Origin: a virus
IMG/VR virus record: IMGVR_UViG_3300037189_005709
Span: 1-43,091 of that record
Length of the DNA stretch: 43,091 nt
Strand: one strand, 5' to 3'
The notes beneath the pieces were generated by a model. That model saw nothing but the letters and a program-made list of their open reading frames with translations. It did not search any database and was not told the DNA's origin. Below, one piece after another: positions 26,263 to 34,277 of the stretch (the stretch's first letter is position 1; the number at the start of each line of letters is the position of its first letter). Position numbers and translations under genes: made by a program.

Positions 26263-26656
26263 CGCCCATGCGGAGCTTACGTATCAGTTTAAGTCTCCAT
26301 CCTTCAACGGGATAGGATATAGTTCTCACGTACAAACGATCGAGAACACAGAGAGCACGCGTAAGAAAGCAATAGAAGACGCGAAGCTACAAGCAGCAAA
26401 GGACGCGGCCGCCGCAGCTAAAAATACAAACCTAGCTAAGTTCCTTAACAACTTTGAGAGCAGAGTCTATGCTCAACTATCTACACAATTAATCAATAAC
26501 CTTTTTGGTGAGAATCCACAGAACAGTGGTACCGTTACCATTGAAGGTAACACCATAGTATATGTTAAGAATGCTGACTCTATATCATTAACGGTTACGG
26601 CTGCAGATGGCACTGTAACTCAAGTAGATATACCAATCGGAACATTAAAATTCTAA
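26216..26656 (+). CDS. csgF: CsgF-like curli assembly factor
   Basis: 146 residues, about the length of bacterial CsgF. The signal peptide MKFTRSLIFLLITTSSAHA is followed by a mature start ELTYQFKSPSFNGIGYSS, matching the CsgF N-terminus (E-L-x-Y-x-P-x-x-P-S-F) that inserts into the CsgG pore and forms its second constriction. The C-terminal part GTVTIEGNTIVYVKN and ITVTAADGTVTQVDIP-like strands are beta-rich. CsgF couples the secretion pore to the amyloid nucleator at the outer surface. RBS AAGGA at about 26206 supports ATG 26216 despite a 47-nt overlap with the upstream gene. csgG follows with a 1-nt overlap. Confidence 0.9.
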   Translation: MKFTRSLIFLLITTSSAHAELTYQFKSPSFNGIGYSSHVQTIENTESTRKKAIEDAKLQAAKDAAAAAKNTNLAKFLNNFESRVYAQLSTQLINNLFGENPQNSGTVTIEGNTIVYVKNADSISLTVTAADGTVTQVDIPIGTLKF

Positions 26657-27423
26657 TGAAAAAGTTACTGTTAGTTTTGTTATGTGTTTTCTTGACAGGA
26701 TGCGGACCGATCCCTATCAAGAAGGATGCAGAACTTATACCTGAAGTTAAGGTTAAGAAACACATCCCGCCACCAAAGGATGGTAAGATCGTAGTTGCAC
26801 TATATGGGTTTGGTGATAAGACTGGACAAAGAAAAGATTCAGGTAATATAGCTAAGTTCTCAACTGCTGTAACCCAAGGCGGCGAGACAGTATTAATCAA
26901 ATCATTACAAGAAGCTGGTGATGGTAAGTGGTTTAGGATCGTAGAACGTGTAGGTCTTGATAACCTACTTAAAGAAAGACAACTAATTCGATCTGCAAGA
27001 GAAGAGGCAAATGATCATAAAGGTCTTGGTCCTATACTCTATGCGGGCATGATGATTGAAGGTGGCATAGTTTCTTATGACACCAATATACGAACAGGTG
27101 GTATTGGAGTTCGATATCTCGGGATCGGTCCTGATCAACAGTATCAGGAAGACGTAGTGACTATCAGCATTCGTGCTATTAGTACACAAACGGGTGAAGT
27201 ATTATTAACAGTGAATACTCAGAAAACTATATTAAGCTATACGATAGGTGTTGCAGTATTTAAGTTCTTTGATAATGGCACTAAAAACTTTGAGTCTGAG
27301 ATTGGTATATCACAAACTGAAGCAAGTATCCACGCTATCAAGTCTGCTACAGATAGGGCAGTGGAAGAGTTAATTATTCAAGGTGAAAAACAAGGAATGT
27401 GGCAGTTTAAACAGGAGAAATAA
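26656..27423 (+). CDS. csgG: CsgG-like curli secretion pore lipoprotein
   Basis: 255 residues. The lipoprotein signal MKKLLLVLLCVFLTGC has Cys16 as acyl-anchor. The body follows E. coli CsgG: IVVALYGFGDKTGQRKDSG, NIAKFSTAVTQGGETVLI, WFRIVERVGLDNLLKERQLI, AGMMIEGGIVSYDTNIRTGG, GVRYLGIGPDQQYQEDVVTI, VNTQKTILSYTIGVAVFKFF. CsgG forms a nonameric outer-membrane channel for unfolded amyloid subunits. The channel-gating residues cannot be assigned by eye, but the membrane hairpin segments (SYDTNIRTGG and KTILSYTIG) are present. The gene sits between csgF and a curlin-repeat gene. A phage csgG is expected to act in the host outer membrane late in infection. Confidence 0.95.
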   Translation: MKKLLLVLLCVFLTGCGPIPIKKDAELIPEVKVKKHIPPPKDGKIVVALYGFGDKTGQRKDSGNIAKFSTAVTQGGETVLIKSLQEAGDGKWFRIVERVGLDNLLKERQLIRSAREEANDHKGLGPILYAGMMIEGGIVSYDTNIRTGGIGVRYLGIGPDQQYQEDVVTISIRAISTQTGEVLLTVNTQKTILSYTIGVAVFKFFDNGTKNFESEIGISQTEASIHAIKSATDRAVEELIIQGEKQGMWQFKQEK

Positions 27424-27425
27424 CA

Positions 27426-28121
27426 ATGAAAAGATCCACCACTCTCGTGATGGGTTTATTATTGGCAGGCAGTGCATTGGCAGACGGAGGCAACTCAGTC
27501 TATATAGATCAGACAAATGCTGATCAATCAGCTGTAACTATTACGCAAACTGGTTCTAACAACAACGTTGGAAGTGCAAACACTACAACAGGTGATCCAT
27601 TTGTAATTGATGGTAACAGTATGTTCTTGACTATTACACAAGATGGTATGAACAACAGCATCTTAGGTAATTTTATTGGTGGTAACTCAACAGCTACTAT
27701 TAGTCAAATTGGTAACAGCAACTCTACATTATTAAACTATGGTAACTTTGGTACAAGTTCTGGTTCATTGGGTATCACATTCAATGGTTCGAACAACAGT
27801 TCTATCTTAAACATCGGTACATTACGTAACTCAAGTAATTACATTTATAACTTAGACATAACTGGTGACACTAATACTGTTACAAGCACAGTTAACAGTG
27901 CTTATACCACTAATAACTTTAGTTTAGCCGGTGATCTAAATAAAGTGATTACTACACAAACTGGTTTTGGTACACTAGCTGGTGGTGGTCATAATATCAA
28001 TACTAATGTAATTGGCGATAATAATAATATCACTGTGAGTCAAGATGGCAACACAATTGCAAATAGCGCGGTTATCAACCTTACTGGTTCTAACTCTGCT
28101 ATTACTGTTACACAACACTAG
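27426..28121 (+). CDS. Curlin-repeat amyloid-like secreted protein
   Basis: 231 residues. Signal peptide MKRSTTLVMGLLLAGSALA, then an Asn/Ser/Thr/Gly-rich chain with degenerate curlin strands: SVYIDQTNADQSAVTITQTG, MFLTITQDGMNNS, TATISQIGNSNS, NITVSQDGNTIANS and a final SAITVTQH. The x-I-x-Q-x-G-x-x-N pattern is that of CsgA/CsgB, here with about eight to nine irregular repeats. It is the expected cargo of the CsgG/CsgF pore encoded just upstream (2 nt gap). Its last 77 nt also encode the signal peptide of the FecR-domain protein in another frame. Amyloid formation is inferred. Confidence 0.9.
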   Translation: MKRSTTLVMGLLLAGSALADGGNSVYIDQTNADQSAVTITQTGSNNNVGSANTTTGDPFVIDGNSMFLTITQDGMNNSILGNFIGGNSTATISQIGNSNSTLLNYGNFGTSSGSLGITFNGSNNSSILNIGTLRNSSNYIYNLDITGDTNTVTSTVNSAYTTNNFSLAGDLNKVITTQTGFGTLAGGGHNINTNVIGDNNNITVSQDGNTIANSAVINLTGSNSAITVTQH

Positions 28122-30545: not shown

Positions 30546-30673
30546 AAGTTAAAAAATTAATTCGTAAGATGTATCTAGCATGCGTTAGACATCAAAAAAA
30601 GAAACAAAAGAAGCTTTGGCTTAAATCACTAAAGAAAAGTTTACAACATAAGAAGACACAAGTTATCCAATGA
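30542..30673 (+). CDS. 43-residue highly basic protein
   Basis: ATG 30542 overlaps the stop of the phosphoesterase gene (ATGA), and its own stop overlaps ATG 30670 of the cyclase gene (ATGA). About 40% of the residues are Lys/Arg/His: MKVKKLIRKMYLACVRHQ, then KKKQKKLWLKSLKKSL. It is amphipathic and basic, so it could bind nucleic acid or the inner membrane surface. No family is recognisable. The double ATGA coupling argues that it is real. Confidence 0.72.
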   Translation: MKVKKLIRKMYLACVRHQKKKQKKLWLKSLKKSLQHKKTQVIQ

Positions 30674-32682
30674 AAAGACTATTATCACCATGGTTTGCTC
30701 TATTAACTTTAGCCTTATTAATAGGAGTTAGAGCAACTGATCCATCATTTGTACAGTCAGTTAGGTTAAGATACTTTGATACACTGATTACAAGTAAACC
30801 CGTAGTACAATCTAAACAAGTCCATGTCGTAAACATCGATGATGCATCAATTGAAAGACTTGGTCAATTTCCATTTCCAAGGAGCCAATATGCAAACATT
30901 ATCGAGGACCTTTACCAACGCAATGCTGGTCTTGTTGTTTTTAATCTTTTTATGCCTGACACTGATCGCTTTGGACGCGATGCCAACTTGGCTGATAGTC
31001 TTGCTAGACACCCTGTCGTCTTACCTCAGGTAGCAACAGATCAGAAACAAAAAGCACTTGCATTTAGACCTGGAGTCAGTGAGATCGGATCACCAGCACA
31101 TGACTTCACTGTAGATTATCCTGGTATCCAACCTAATATATCATTATTTAACAACAGCGCTGCTGGAATAGGAGTCGTAAATGTCTTACCCGAAATTGAT
31201 GGTGTTACTCGCCGTATCCCTATGGTCGTATCAAGCGGAGGCTTGCTCTACCCAAGTATTACTCTCGAAACTTTGCGTGTCGCAGTCGGAGACCCAAGTT
31301 TCCAAGTTAAATCTTCCGATAGAGGAATCGAAGCTGTTCGCATCCCTAAATTCGCCAAGATCCAAACCGACAGTATCGGTCGTATCTGGATTGACTGGAG
31401 CGCGAGTCCAATTCAACACTCTCTTGTGGACCTCCCCAAATCGTTTGATGGAGGTATCGTCATCGTTGGCCTCACAGCCCGTGGGCTCAACAACCCAGTT
31501 GCAACCCCTCGAGGTGGACTCTTTCCTCATTACGTTCAAGCGAACGTTCTAGACACACTCACATCAGGCACAGTCATATCGCGACCTGATTGGGCAGATG
31601 GTGCAGAAGTACTTGCGACCATCATCTTATCAATCGTATTAATCTTATTAACAAGGTGGAAGTATGGAATTATTCTTATTCTTGGTATTTTGGGCGGTCT
31701 TTATAGTGTGGGTAGCGCGATATTCACTCACTACGGCTATCTTATTGATGTTCTCTTCCCTATTATTATCCTTTCTGTGGTATACGCTCATGCCTATACT
31801 GTCAAATTTATCACCGAGCTTAACGCAAAGCTTAGGATAAAGAAACAATTTGGGACATACCTATCACCAGCAATGGTTGAGAAGTTACAAAAGAACCCAG
31901 ATCTGCTACAACTTGGTGGTGATAGTCGCGAGCTAAGCATAATGTTTACAGACGTTCGTGGCTTTACTACCATCTCTGAACACTATGGAGCAGATGTACA
32001 AGGTCTAACTAAGATTATGAACCGTTACATGACAGCTATGACTCGTAAGATCATAGACAACAACGGTACACTTGATAAGTACATCGGTGATGCGCAGATG
32101 GCTTTTTGGAATGCACCATTGGATGACAAAGATCATGCTATCAATGCAGTTAAAACAGGATTGGAGATGTTAGATGACTTGGATAGATTCAATGAAGAGA
32201 TTACTAAAGAAGGTATTCCTCCTTTTGGTATGGGCCTGGGTGTTAATACCGGGGTCGTCGTTGTGGGTAATATGGGCAGTGAGCAGCGTTTTGACTATAC
32301 CTGCCTCGGTGACTCAGTCAACCTCGCAAGCCGTCTTGAAGGCCAATCAAAGAATTATGGAGTTCGAATCGTCCTTGGTCAACGCACAGCAGAGCTCGTC
32401 AAAGACACATACCCAGTAGTTGAGATGGATACTATAGCGGTTAAAGGAAAGACTCAGGGTGTGAAGGTGTATACGATTGGCAAGACTCAGGGTTATATGC
32501 ATGATGAGTTCCTCAAAGAGTATTATAGAGGAAACTGGTCCAGAGCTGAGGGGTGGCTCCAGGAGCTCTTGGCACTGGGGGACGATGTAACCATTAGTGA
32601 CTACTATGAAAAGATGCTGGAGCGCATCCGGGAGGGCCTACCCCCTGAATGGGACGGCGTATATAGGGCTACCTCCAAATAG
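30670..32682 (+). CDS. CHASE2-domain class III adenylate cyclase
   Basis: 670 residues. One N-terminal membrane segment (FALLTLALLIGV) is followed by a periplasmic CHASE2 sensor domain (about 30-300; VHVVNIDDASIERLG, QFPFPRSQYANII, GIGVVNVLPEIDGVTRRIPM, VIVGLTARGLNNPVATPRG) and three membrane helices (about 310-375). The cyclase catalytic domain holds IMFTDVRGFTTISEHYG and GTLDKYIGDAQMAFW (metal Asp pair and adenine-selecting Lys), then RFDYTCLGDSVNLASRLEG (Thr, as in bacterial adenylate cyclases, plus Asn/Arg). All catalytic positions look intact, so it should make cAMP in response to a periplasmic cue. A terminator closes the operon. Such a cyclase is very rare in phages as far as I know. 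Confidence 0.93.
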   Translation: MKRLLSPWFALLTLALLIGVRATDPSFVQSVRLRYFDTLITSKPVVQSKQVHVVNIDDASIERLGQFPFPRSQYANIIEDLYQRNAGLVVFNLFMPDTDRFGRDANLADSLARHPVVLPQVATDQKQKALAFRPGVSEIGSPAHDFTVDYPGIQPNISLFNNSAAGIGVVNVLPEIDGVTRRIPMVVSSGGLLYPSITLETLRVAVGDPSFQVKSSDRGIEAVRIPKFAKIQTDSIGRIWIDWSASPIQHSLVDLPKSFDGGIVIVGLTARGLNNPVATPRGGLFPHYVQANVLDTLTSGTVISRPDWADGAEVLATIILSIVLILLTRWKYGIILILGILGGLYSVGSAIFTHYGYLIDVLFPIIILSVVYAHAYTVKFITELNAKLRIKKQFGTYLSPAMVEKLQKNPDLLQLGGDSRELSIMFTDVRGFTTISEHYGADVQGLTKIMNRYMTAMTRKIIDNNGTLDKYIGDAQMAFWNAPLDDKDHAINAVKTGLEMLDDLDRFNEEITKEGIPPFGMGLGVNTGVVVVGNMGSEQRFDYTCLGDSVNLASRLEGQSKNYGVRIVLGQRTAELVKDTYPVVEMDTIAVKGKTQGVKVYTIGKTQGYMHDEFLKEYYRGNWSRAEGWLQELLALGDDVTISDYYEKMLERIREGLPPEWDGVYRATSK

Positions 32683-33520: not shown

Positions 33521-33549
33521 TGTACATTAATTCATTATTAGGGTATAAT
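33521..33549 (+). promoter_or_regulatory. Early promoter (TGTACA - 17 - TATAAT), leaderless geometry
   Basis: TGTACATTAAT, 17-bp spacer ending GGG, TATAAT, with 7 nt between the -10 and ATG 33557. It may also drive the structured RNA and tRNAs downstream. Confidence 0.87.
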
Positions 33550-33556
33550 GACCATT

Positions 33557-33727
33557 ATGGAAAATAAAACTAACATCAAGTATAACGTTAAAGACAAAAA
33601 AGAAGGCCGCATGTATGCGGTCCCAGATCCGATCGATGAGGATGCTTTGTCTGAAGACGAACGTGAGATGCTCAATCAAATGGGTGGTATGGATCCACAC
33701 TTCTGGGGTCCTGGTTACGACGAGTAA
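33557..33727 (+). CDS. 56-residue acidic protein
   Basis: ATG 33557 lies 7 nt after a strong -10 box with no Shine-Dalgarno, so a leaderless start is predicted. The sequence has a basic N-terminal part (KYNVKDKKEGRMYAVPD) and an acidic, Gly/Met-rich C-terminal part (MLNQMGGMDPHFWGPGYDE). No family is recognised. Its TAA stop codon forms the first bases of the long helix that encloses the putative RNA element at 33727-33836. Confidence 0.72.
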   Translation: MENKTNIKYNVKDKKEGRMYAVPDPIDEDALSEDEREMLNQMGGMDPHFWGPGYDE

Positions 33728-33836
33728 TATTAGTGTAGGGCTTTGTGCCACTTAATACATATATGCGGACATATCCTAGGTTACATGCTTCCGCGGGTTA
33801 CCGGTCGTACAACCGGGCAGAGTCCTACACTAATAT
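33727..33836 (+). ncRNA. Putative structured RNA closed by a 13-bp helix
   Basis: Positions 33727-33739 pair perfectly with 33824-33836 (13 bp, ATATTAGTGTAGG / CCTACACTAATAT). Inside, GCGGA (33765-33769) can pair with TCCGC near 33790-33794, and CCGGT (33801-33805) with ACCGG (33812-33816), giving a three-helix junction. The space holds no credible ORF. The closing helix takes in the first two bases of tRNA-Arg, linking it to tRNA processing. It matches no riboswitch or tmRNA I can recognise. Candidate classes are a phage-type cis-regulatory RNA or a tRNA-operon leader. Confidence 0.6.
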
Positions 33837-33911
33837 GTCTATAGCTCAGTTGGATAGAGCACGAGCCTTCTAAGCTCGGGGTCATTGGTTCGAATCCAAT
33901 TAGGCATACCA
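33835..33911 (+). tRNA. tRNA-Arg(UCU)
   Basis: A full cloverleaf with encoded CCA: acceptor ATGTCTA / TAGGCAT, D stem GCTC/GAGC, anticodon stem CGAGC/GCTCG with loop CTTCTAA (anticodon TCT), T arm ATTGG-TTCGAAT-CCAAT. It reads AGA, a frequent Arg codon in these genes. Confidence 0.95.
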
Positions 33912-33913
33912 TC

Positions 33914-33990
33914 GGGCCTATAGCTCAGTTGGTCAGAGCAGAGGACTCATAATCCTTTGGTCCTTGGTTCAAACCCAAGTGGGCCCACCA
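33914..33990 (+). tRNA. tRNA with CAU anticodon, probably tRNA-Ile2
   Basis: Cloverleaf with encoded CCA: acceptor GGGCCTA / TGGGCCC, D stem GCTC/GAGC, anticodon stem GAGGA/TCCTT with loop CTCATAA, T arm CTTGG-TTCAAAC-CCAAG. The ACTCATAATC...TTGGTC stretch resembles bacterial tRNA-Ile2, whose CAU wobble base is modified to lysidine to read AUA. Elongator Met remains possible. AUA and AGA decoding would suit AT-rich genes. Confidence 0.93.
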
Positions 33991-34019: not shown

Positions 34020-34277
34020 ATGCAATTGCTTGAAGAAGACCGTAAGAAAATTAAAGGCTGCTTAGGTGAGATCTCTGACTCTATGACACGTGTAGAAGCT
34101 GAGAAAGACTTTGTCAAAGAAGTTCTTAAGAACCTATACGATGAGTTTAAGATCCCTAAAAAGACATTAGCTAAGTTGGCTAATACATACCATCGCCAAA
34201 ACTTCAACGAAGAAGTGGCTTTAAACGATGAGTTTGAGACCATCTATCAAAATGTTACCAACCAAGAAGCTGAATAA
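34020..34277 (+). CDS. dsbA: DsbA-like dsDNA-binding late transcription factor
   Basis: 85 residues, charged and helical. The layout and the segment VEAEKDFVKEVLKNLYDEFK, then IPKKTLAKLANTYHRQNFNE, match T4 DsbA (89 residues), a dsDNA-binding protein that stimulates late transcription. AAAGGT precedes the ATG. It follows two tRNAs and lies close to RNase H, as the dsbA-rnh pair does in T4. Together with TATAAATA promoters elsewhere it supports a T4-type late programme. No sigma-like gp55 lies in the window. Confidence 0.88.
   Translation: MQLLEEDRKKIKGCLGEISDSMTRVEAEKDFVKEVLKNLYDEFKIPKKTLAKLANTYHRQNFNEEVALNDEFETIYQNVTNQEAE

Follow-up and report, generated by a model that had tools for sequence, protein, structure and literature searches.

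RNA element upstream of two phage tRNAs

Does the DNA between a small reading frame and two tRNA genes of this phage encode an RNA of its own, and what might such an RNA do? The window, i.e. the whole stretch of DNA analysed here (43,091 nt), is a 43-kb linear viral contig from IMG/VR and belongs to a freshwater phage. A first-pass annotation had proposed that an unassigned structured RNA lies here, delimited by a long helix that runs from the stop codon of a small gene into the 5' end of tRNA-Arg. All parts of this description were found in the sequence, and the coordinates agree. A perfect helix of 13 bp is formed by ATATTAGTGTAGG (33727-33739) and its exact complement CCTACACTAATAT (33824-33836); it encloses 84 nt and two inner hairpins, GCGGA/TCCGC (33765-33769/33790-33794) and CCGGT/ACCGG (33801-33805/33812-33816). 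The helix opens on the final base of the TAA stop codon that closes the ORF at 33548-33727, and its 3' end reaches two bases into tRNA-Arg(TCT) (33835-33911), with tRNA-Met next in line.

Such a helix had been judged unlikely to arise by chance, and our calculations bear this out. The window has no other perfect inverted repeat of 13 bp or more with a loop of 40-150 nt (n = 1), against an average of 0.08 in Markov-1 sequences of the same length. Employing RNAfold, the helix extends inwards to 20 bp, including three G-U pairs, and the element reaches a minimum free energy of -42.5 kcal/mol compared to -28 +/- 3.25 kcal/mol for 200 dinucleotide shuffles (z = -4.46), none of which was as low. The features of the locus, all on the plus strand, are:

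33727-33836, +: whole RNA element, a family member with three-way junction, its extent set by the closing helix (fold z -4.46; covariance-model match)
33727-33746, +: 5' strand of P1, 20 bp with G-U pairs, the outer 13 bp perfect (RNAfold; P1 covariation)
33747-33764, +: J1/2, single-stranded conserved core GCCACTTAATACATATAT (near-invariant columns in alignments A1-A4)
33765-33769, +: 5' strand of P2, GCGGA (one pair covaries as C-G / U-A / A-U when P2 is left unfixed in the search)
33770-33787, +: P3 (CAT/ATG) plus apical loop (first two pairs covary, 100% paired)
33775-33780, +: palindrome CCTAGG of L3, proposed symmetric kissing loop (palindromes in 49/56 distinct short L3 loops)
33790-33794, +: 3' strand of P2, TCCGC (same P2 covariation)
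33795-33800, +: J2/4, conserved core GGGTTA (GGGU.A kept in nearly all members)
33801-33816, +: P4 hairpin CCGGT-CGTACA-ACCGG (all 8 pairs covary; 93.5% of cells form a pair)
33817-33836, +: 3' strand of P1, its final two bases shared with the start of tRNA-Arg (sequence, RNAfold)
33548-33727, +: upstream small ORF, 59 aa, ending in GPGYDE before the stop (no Pfam match; no part in RNA function)
33835-33911, +: tRNA-Arg(TCT), directly 3' of the element and outside it (tRNA and Rfam scans)
33914-33990, +: tRNA-Met(CAT) (tRNA and Rfam scans)

The phage encodes a CsgG curli pore (PF03783) and curlin repeats (PF07012) at 26656-28121; such curli-type genes are reported for Melnitz and SAR11 myophages. 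Its RNase H/flap endonuclease is closest to that of Pelagibacter phage HTVC008M, followed by that of Methylophilales phage Melnitz. Melnitz-like phages carry a curli operon and a two-piece tmRNA (PMC9004378). In the corresponding neighbourhood of Melnitz a tRNA-Arg(TCT) is present and the element is missing, and the covariance-model search found no copy of the element in either HTVC008M or Melnitz. Upstream in the window (30670-32682) lies the gene of a 670-residue protein with CHASE2 and adenylate/guanylate cyclase domains (PF05226, PF00211). Downstream, at 34020-34277, an 85-residue protein of PF11126 (T4 DsbA-like transcriptional regulator) is encoded, which is kept beside the element in many relatives; the small 59-aa ORF often, yet not always, precedes it there.

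A family of related elements in phage contigs

The search for relatives started from 35 loci that encode relatives of the downstream protein, and the same core recurred upstream. Core patterns brought in about 100 contigs. MAFFT had misaligned the 3' half; the covariance model was seeded with 11 sequences of similar length. A first run over 90 loci recovered 79 members and a later one over 82 loci recovered 82; their scores ranged between 99 and 34.8 bits (E <= 1e-5), and no weaker matches followed at E up to 1. Within this range, the member of the window is matched at 33736-33827 with 54.9 bits (E 2.9e-11). Pattern scans and the covariance model thus delimit a family of 82 members (80 distinct) from IMG/VR phage contigs. 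L005 and L012 had been missed by the patterns and were added by the model, while a second, relaxed pattern (AAYC type) yielded almost only chance matches. All 18 member contigs that were searched whole (39-236 kb, at most 235,812 b, the window included) comprise one convincing copy each.

Among the carriers are T4-like phages, recognised by gp23 in five contigs and by gp32 in L039, and contigs of approximately 80-125 kb with a terminase of about 440 residues (PF03237 family). Consequently, more than one phage group carries the element. Six queries covering the element were compared by blastn against the INPHARED phages and delivered only tRNA/tmRNA parts or chance matches, so that the family rests on environmental contigs so far. 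Among 84,980 bacterial and archaeal genomes, a scan with the pattern retrieved seven matches, which we judge to be chance since none of them shows the J1/2 core. Blastn matches in Proteus and Acinetobacter were discarded as well; they cover only the tRNA plus the 6-13 nt before it.

A scan against Rfam 15, as suggested by the first-pass annotation, recognised the two tRNAs of the window and left the element without a match. Across the family, gathering as well as permissive thresholds (E up to 10) delivered only tRNA/tmRNA matches and none to the element itself. Neither Rfam nor the papers retrieved in our searches contain a description of the family. The element thus appears to belong to a widespread, so far undescribed RNA family of aquatic phages.

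Consensus fold and covariation

The aligned members point to a consensus of approximately 85-140 nt, a three-way junction built from P1, a P2/P3 arm and the P4 hairpin around a conserved single-stranded core. Standard pairs make up 97.1% of cells over the structure as a whole, compared to 62.7% in shuffles and 31-44% in slid versions. Furthermore, 21 of the 25 pairs change on both sides across the family, and the covariation score of 0.789 exceeds both shuffles (0.187) and slid partners (<=0.114). The alignment behind these pair counts was fitted to the model and leans towards the structure, while the slid controls, as well as a pair in L005, are independent of this fitting. L005 occupies the same locus as the element of the window, with a neighbour protein of 90% identity, and displays a compensatory change of G33738-C33825 to A-U in P1. 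Compensatory changes in homologues, which the first-pass annotation had named as a check, were thus found.

The stems contribute in different ways. P1 is a closing helix of 8-27 bp and of any sequence; two-sided changes occur at all 10 modelled pairs, with 97.5% of cells paired. In P4, every one of the eight pairs covaries (93.5% of cells paired). P3 has two strongly covarying first pairs across a two-base bulge (G-C 45 / C-G 35; U-A, A-U, C-G, G-C), which are paired in 100% of cases. The invariance of P2 (GCGGA/UCCGC) in the first alignment was imposed by the search pattern; P2-free patterns gave other forms, and one of its pairs is then seen as C-G, U-A and A-U. The conserved unpaired stretches are GCCA(CUU/AUC)AAU..AUAUAUG and GGGU.A. 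J1/2 and J2/4 could also form a 3-bp pseudoknot (GCC/GGU), the columns of which barely vary. One member, L125 (9572-9640, minus strand), lacks the P4 hairpin that the otherwise similar locus L098 has; apparently it was lost by deletion between two TTAGTAT repeats.

Two readings that the first-pass annotation had named as grounds for refutation were rejected. A tRNA or decayed tRNA is at odds with the conserved, covarying non-tRNA fold of the element, to which neither ARAGORN nor RF00005 gave a match, and a coding gene with the length changes within the core, which would break any reading frame. The proposal of an unassigned structured RNA beside tRNAs thus gained strong support, from the missing Rfam match, from covariation in every stem and from the association with tRNAs and tmRNAs described below.

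Genomic context

A tRNA or tmRNA lies within 60 nt of the element in 39 of 70 representative loci, compared to 7.4 expected under random placement in the same loci (maximum 19 in 20,000 trials). For the most part the element sits flush between tRNAs, or within or beside a permuted tmRNA gene of the same strand. The fit is close. Where a tRNA follows, the outer end of P1 lies -4 to +4 nt from its 5' end (17 of 18 cases); where one precedes, the offset to its 3' end is -6 to +2 nt (10 of 10). In several members P1 even takes in the CCA, paired with UGG.

Some contigs have the element as intervening sequence within a circularly permuted phage tmRNA, where it extends from the CCA end to the 5' end of the tRNA-like domain (L039, as found by ARAGORN, L046, L084, which is cut by the contig end, L088, L100, L105, L118, L126, L146 and L149). 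The tmRNA around L046 scores 98.8 bits with RF04321 and 82.3 bits with RF01849. The host genes of L046, L088, L126, L146 and others possess both a tRNA-like domain and a tag reading frame, and the element is only their spacer; around the element of the window the Rfam scan revealed no permuted tmRNA of this kind. Such a spacer is missing from the mature molecule (PMC11915505). In other contigs the element is located just before a permuted tmRNA (L086, L112, L124, L128) or after it (L090, L131). In L082 it lies within a tRNA-like domain without recognisable tag part and adjoins a second, complete permuted tmRNA. The same region of L082 (2072-3156, minus strand) has two tRNA-like domains of permuted tmRNAs around a putative GIY-YIG-like endonuclease frame, named from sequence, and the complete tmRNA there is without an element.

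In 19 of the 70 loci no tRNA was detected within 300 nt, and some of these elements lie inside tmRNAs that ARAGORN missed. Among the members far from tRNAs, some end with P1 followed by a T run (L004 type) and others lack the T run. L005 shares the upstream gene with the window and keeps the RNA, while the tRNA pair is missing. Consequently, the fusion to a tRNA pair, which the first-pass annotation had made part of the element, turns out to be incidental: besides L005, other members occupy tmRNA spacers, adjoin different tRNAs or lie at a distance from any tRNA.

The palindromic P3 loop

Of the 56 distinct L3 loops of up to 16 nt, 49 contain a perfect 6-nt palindrome, while shuffled loops gave a mean of 9.1 and a maximum of 20 in 10,000 trials. 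Around 15 kinds of hexamer occur. The window has CCTAGG; elsewhere we found CCATGG, CTCGAG, TCTAGA, GTCGAC, CTGCAG, ACCGGT, TCCGGA, CGTACG, GCCGGC, GCGCGC and others. The flanks of the hexamer are nearly constant in length and it sits in the apical loop of a covarying stem. The clearest cases are close relatives: L110 (GTCGAC) and L027 (CCTAGG) agree in every one of the 75 positions aligned outside L3, and L089 and L138 (97%) differ by CTCGAG versus CGCGCG. The loop thus covaries while it stays self-complementary, as would be expected of a homo-oligomeric phage RNA of the GOLLD type.

Its own loop offers such a hexamer no partner, so that a second molecule most likely imposes the constraint, or else the DNA. 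The wholesale swap of one palindrome for another between close relatives is probably the signature of a symmetric kissing-loop homodimer. Seven of the 56 short loops have no perfect hexamer, and the long P3 arms are explained only partly. We dropped the idea that P4 loops are palindromic throughout, as only about half of the variants are (for example GUUGCAAA, GUUCGAAA and GUGCAC); such loops could form a second contact, though not a general one.

The DNA alternative would treat the L3 palindromes as signals for dimeric DNA-binding or restriction-like proteins. Palindromic hexamers are indeed typical of dimeric DNA-protein sites. However, the hexamers differ between otherwise identical copies, so that no single protein would read all of them, and a covarying RNA stem carries them in its apical loop, with flanks of nearly constant length. 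We thus regard a DNA-level signal as very unlikely.

Proposed role and rival explanations

Taken together, we propose that the element is a small trans-acting non-coding phage RNA of a new family, which would be freed by tRNA/tmRNA processing and act as a homodimer; from the comparison of sequences we assign this reading a probability of roughly 60%. Two copies would dock through the self-complementary L3 hexamer to form a kissing-loop homodimer, which is the step we hold with most confidence. Somewhat less confidently, the RNA would be co-transcribed with the tRNAs or tmRNA, and RNase P together with 3'-end nucleases would free the P1-closed molecule. The preferred places of the element are spacers that tRNA-processing enzymes cut out, which makes co-transcription and release the likeliest expression route; the 19 of 70 members without a tRNA within 300 nt would need a different one. 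With the least confidence, the dimer might serve inside infected cells as a trans-acting scaffold or decoy, its invariant junction binding a protein or the translation machinery. This guess is based on the invariant nucleotides, all of which face the junction. A single copy, a conserved core, free placement and, as seen in L005, independence from the neighbours are what would be expected of a trans-acting RNA gene.

One might further speculate that the self-complementary L3 hexamer, swapped as a unit while the rest stays fixed, serves as a lineage 'barcode' that keeps the RNAs of co-infecting relatives unmixed, and that the RNA arises as a by-product of tRNA/tmRNA maturation, even within a tmRNA precursor. 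This extension is tentative and, in our view, has less in its favour than the proposed homodimer.

The best rival is a cis-acting module for maturation or stability of the phage tRNAs and permuted tmRNA, in which P1 would keep the spacer closed, put RNase P and 3' nucleases in place or protect the CCA end. It would fit the tRNA/tmRNA enrichment, the few nucleotides that separate the P1 ends from tRNA ends and, in permuted tmRNA, the position as the spacer that joins the CCA end to the 5' end. However, there is one copy per genome despite many tRNAs (L086, L112 and L131 each have about a dozen in the fetched stretch), the place relative to the tmRNA varies (inside, before, after), 19/70 members have no tRNA within 300 nt, and L005 keeps the RNA without the tRNA pair. 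In addition, the invariant core and the palindromic loop are left unexplained, and we consider such a module rather improbable. The related suggestion of the first-pass annotation, protection or regulation of the two tRNAs, fares no better; the contexts and the single copy per genome agree better with a trans-acting RNA that is independent of them.

A selfish or mobile RNA-encoding element that survives, with no benefit for the phage, in tRNA or tmRNA spacers that are excised anyway would likewise show a single copy and a changing place. The same core in very different contexts of at least two phage groups, the flush insertion at tRNA ends and the putative GIY-YIG-like homing endonuclease frame (named from sequence) beside the L082 tmRNA copy would agree with such an element. 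In contrast, never more than one convincing copy per genome was found, and neither a conserved protein nor a target-site duplication was seen. Strong conservation of the core and turnover of always-palindromic loops point to a function of the RNA instead, which renders the selfish scenario unlikely, more so than the cis-acting module.

We give still less credit, about as little as to the DNA-level signal, to a ribozyme, self-cleaving or RNA-cutting, by which the ends of tRNA or tmRNA would be freed. As a small junction RNA with an invariant single-stranded core the element would suit this role, while the HDV ribozyme fold is a nested pseudoknot, unlike the plain three-way junction supported by covariation here, in which P1 brackets the whole RNA. 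Theta (HDV-like) ribozymes of gut phages adjoin tRNAs (PMC10879173), as the element does, but they differ from it in topology and core. Moreover, neither length nor end sequences of P1 are conserved, no cleavage site lies at a fixed distance, and the Rfam scans gave no match to any ribozyme family. Least likely of all is a riboswitch or other cis-regulatory leader. The first-pass annotation had raised a riboswitch-like element, and nothing emerged in its support. While the conserved core looks aptamer-like and L054 and L106 are located just upstream of an ORF, the element is mostly followed by a tRNA, a tmRNA or another hairpin rather than by a conserved gene; there is no conserved expression platform and several members lie inside a tmRNA.

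Comparison with known RNAs

Loops of comparable design occur elsewhere. The dimer initiation site of HIV-1 (SL1) is a hairpin loop with a 6-nt palindrome whose version differs by lineage; virus and RNA are unrelated, and here the loop belongs to a phage non-coding RNA. The pRNA of phi29 is a phage RNA with a long arbitrary closing helix, the copies of which assemble as their phage-specific loops pair with one another. In contrast to the single self-complementary loop of the element, two different loops pair in a ring there; the Rfam scan revealed no relation between both, and the identified carriers of the element are T4-like or have a different terminase.

GOLLD and ROOL are RNAs of phages and prophages, often near tRNA islands, that form RNA-only nanocages and comprise some covarying palindromes (PMC12286853). 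The element resembles them as a phage-borne non-coding RNA near tRNAs with, as proposed here, intermolecular kissing loops. However, GOLLD and ROOL are many hundreds of nt long with elaborate folds, while the element's family spans approximately 85-140 nt with one three-way junction and has far more diverse L3 palindromes. Profiles of GOLLD, ROOL and OLE are present in Rfam (PMC12286853); the scan placed the element, of about 110 nt, in neither GOLLD nor ROOL. OLE RNA forms a homodimer through a symmetric kissing loop, in which palindromes replace one another (PMC12286853), and differs as a large bacterial RNA of other fold and context. For OLE and GOLLD the palindrome-swap argument was used with fewer variants, and the kissing loops are visible by cryo-EM (PMC12286853). 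Compared to GOLLD and ROOL, the element is several times smaller, its fold is unrelated and its palindrome set is much richer, and the family itself appears to be undescribed. The permuted tmRNA (RF04321/RF01849/RF01850) is close in another sense, as several copies of the element form its intervening sequence. However, the Rfam models leave this segment out, the element is removed from the mature tmRNA, and most copies, that of the window included, lie outside a tmRNA.

Thus a compact RNA family, seen only in environmental phage contigs, joins the short list of natural RNAs with evidence of homo-oligomer formation. Its size of approximately 100 nt would make reconstitution, mutation and structure solving far easier than for GOLLD or ROOL, and renders the question of why phages keep self-assembling RNAs beside tRNAs directly testable. 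It is unusual in evolution that always-palindromic loops turn over between copies which do not differ otherwise, and the place inside the removed spacer of a phage tmRNA suggests that an RNA may be expressed from the waste of another.

Recurring sequences 3' of the element

A second recurring hairpin element is found directly 3' of the element in L004 (approximately 1013-1075), L011, L021, L027, L028 and L057, for example TAAAGTGCACTAGAGAGGTCAAACTAAGGGTACCTCTATTTTACCTAGTGCACTTTA. Its closing stem differs compensatorily, being AAAGCATATTAG/CTAGTATGCTTT in L011 and AAAACACATTAG/CTAGTGTGTTTT in L021, and the Rfam scan gave no match to it in L004 or L021. In L005 this hairpin occupies the place of the tRNA-Arg of the window. 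Two additional repeated intergenic stretches follow the element elsewhere, both without a tRNA or gathering-score Rfam match in the scanned loci (L006, L015). One of them, CATAGGTAG..AGTCCTATG..GGACAG.., is shared by L006, L013 and L137, the other, TAATGAGAACTTGATGGAGGCG..CTCATTAGCAAAGCA.., by L015 and L028, and both are apparently structured.
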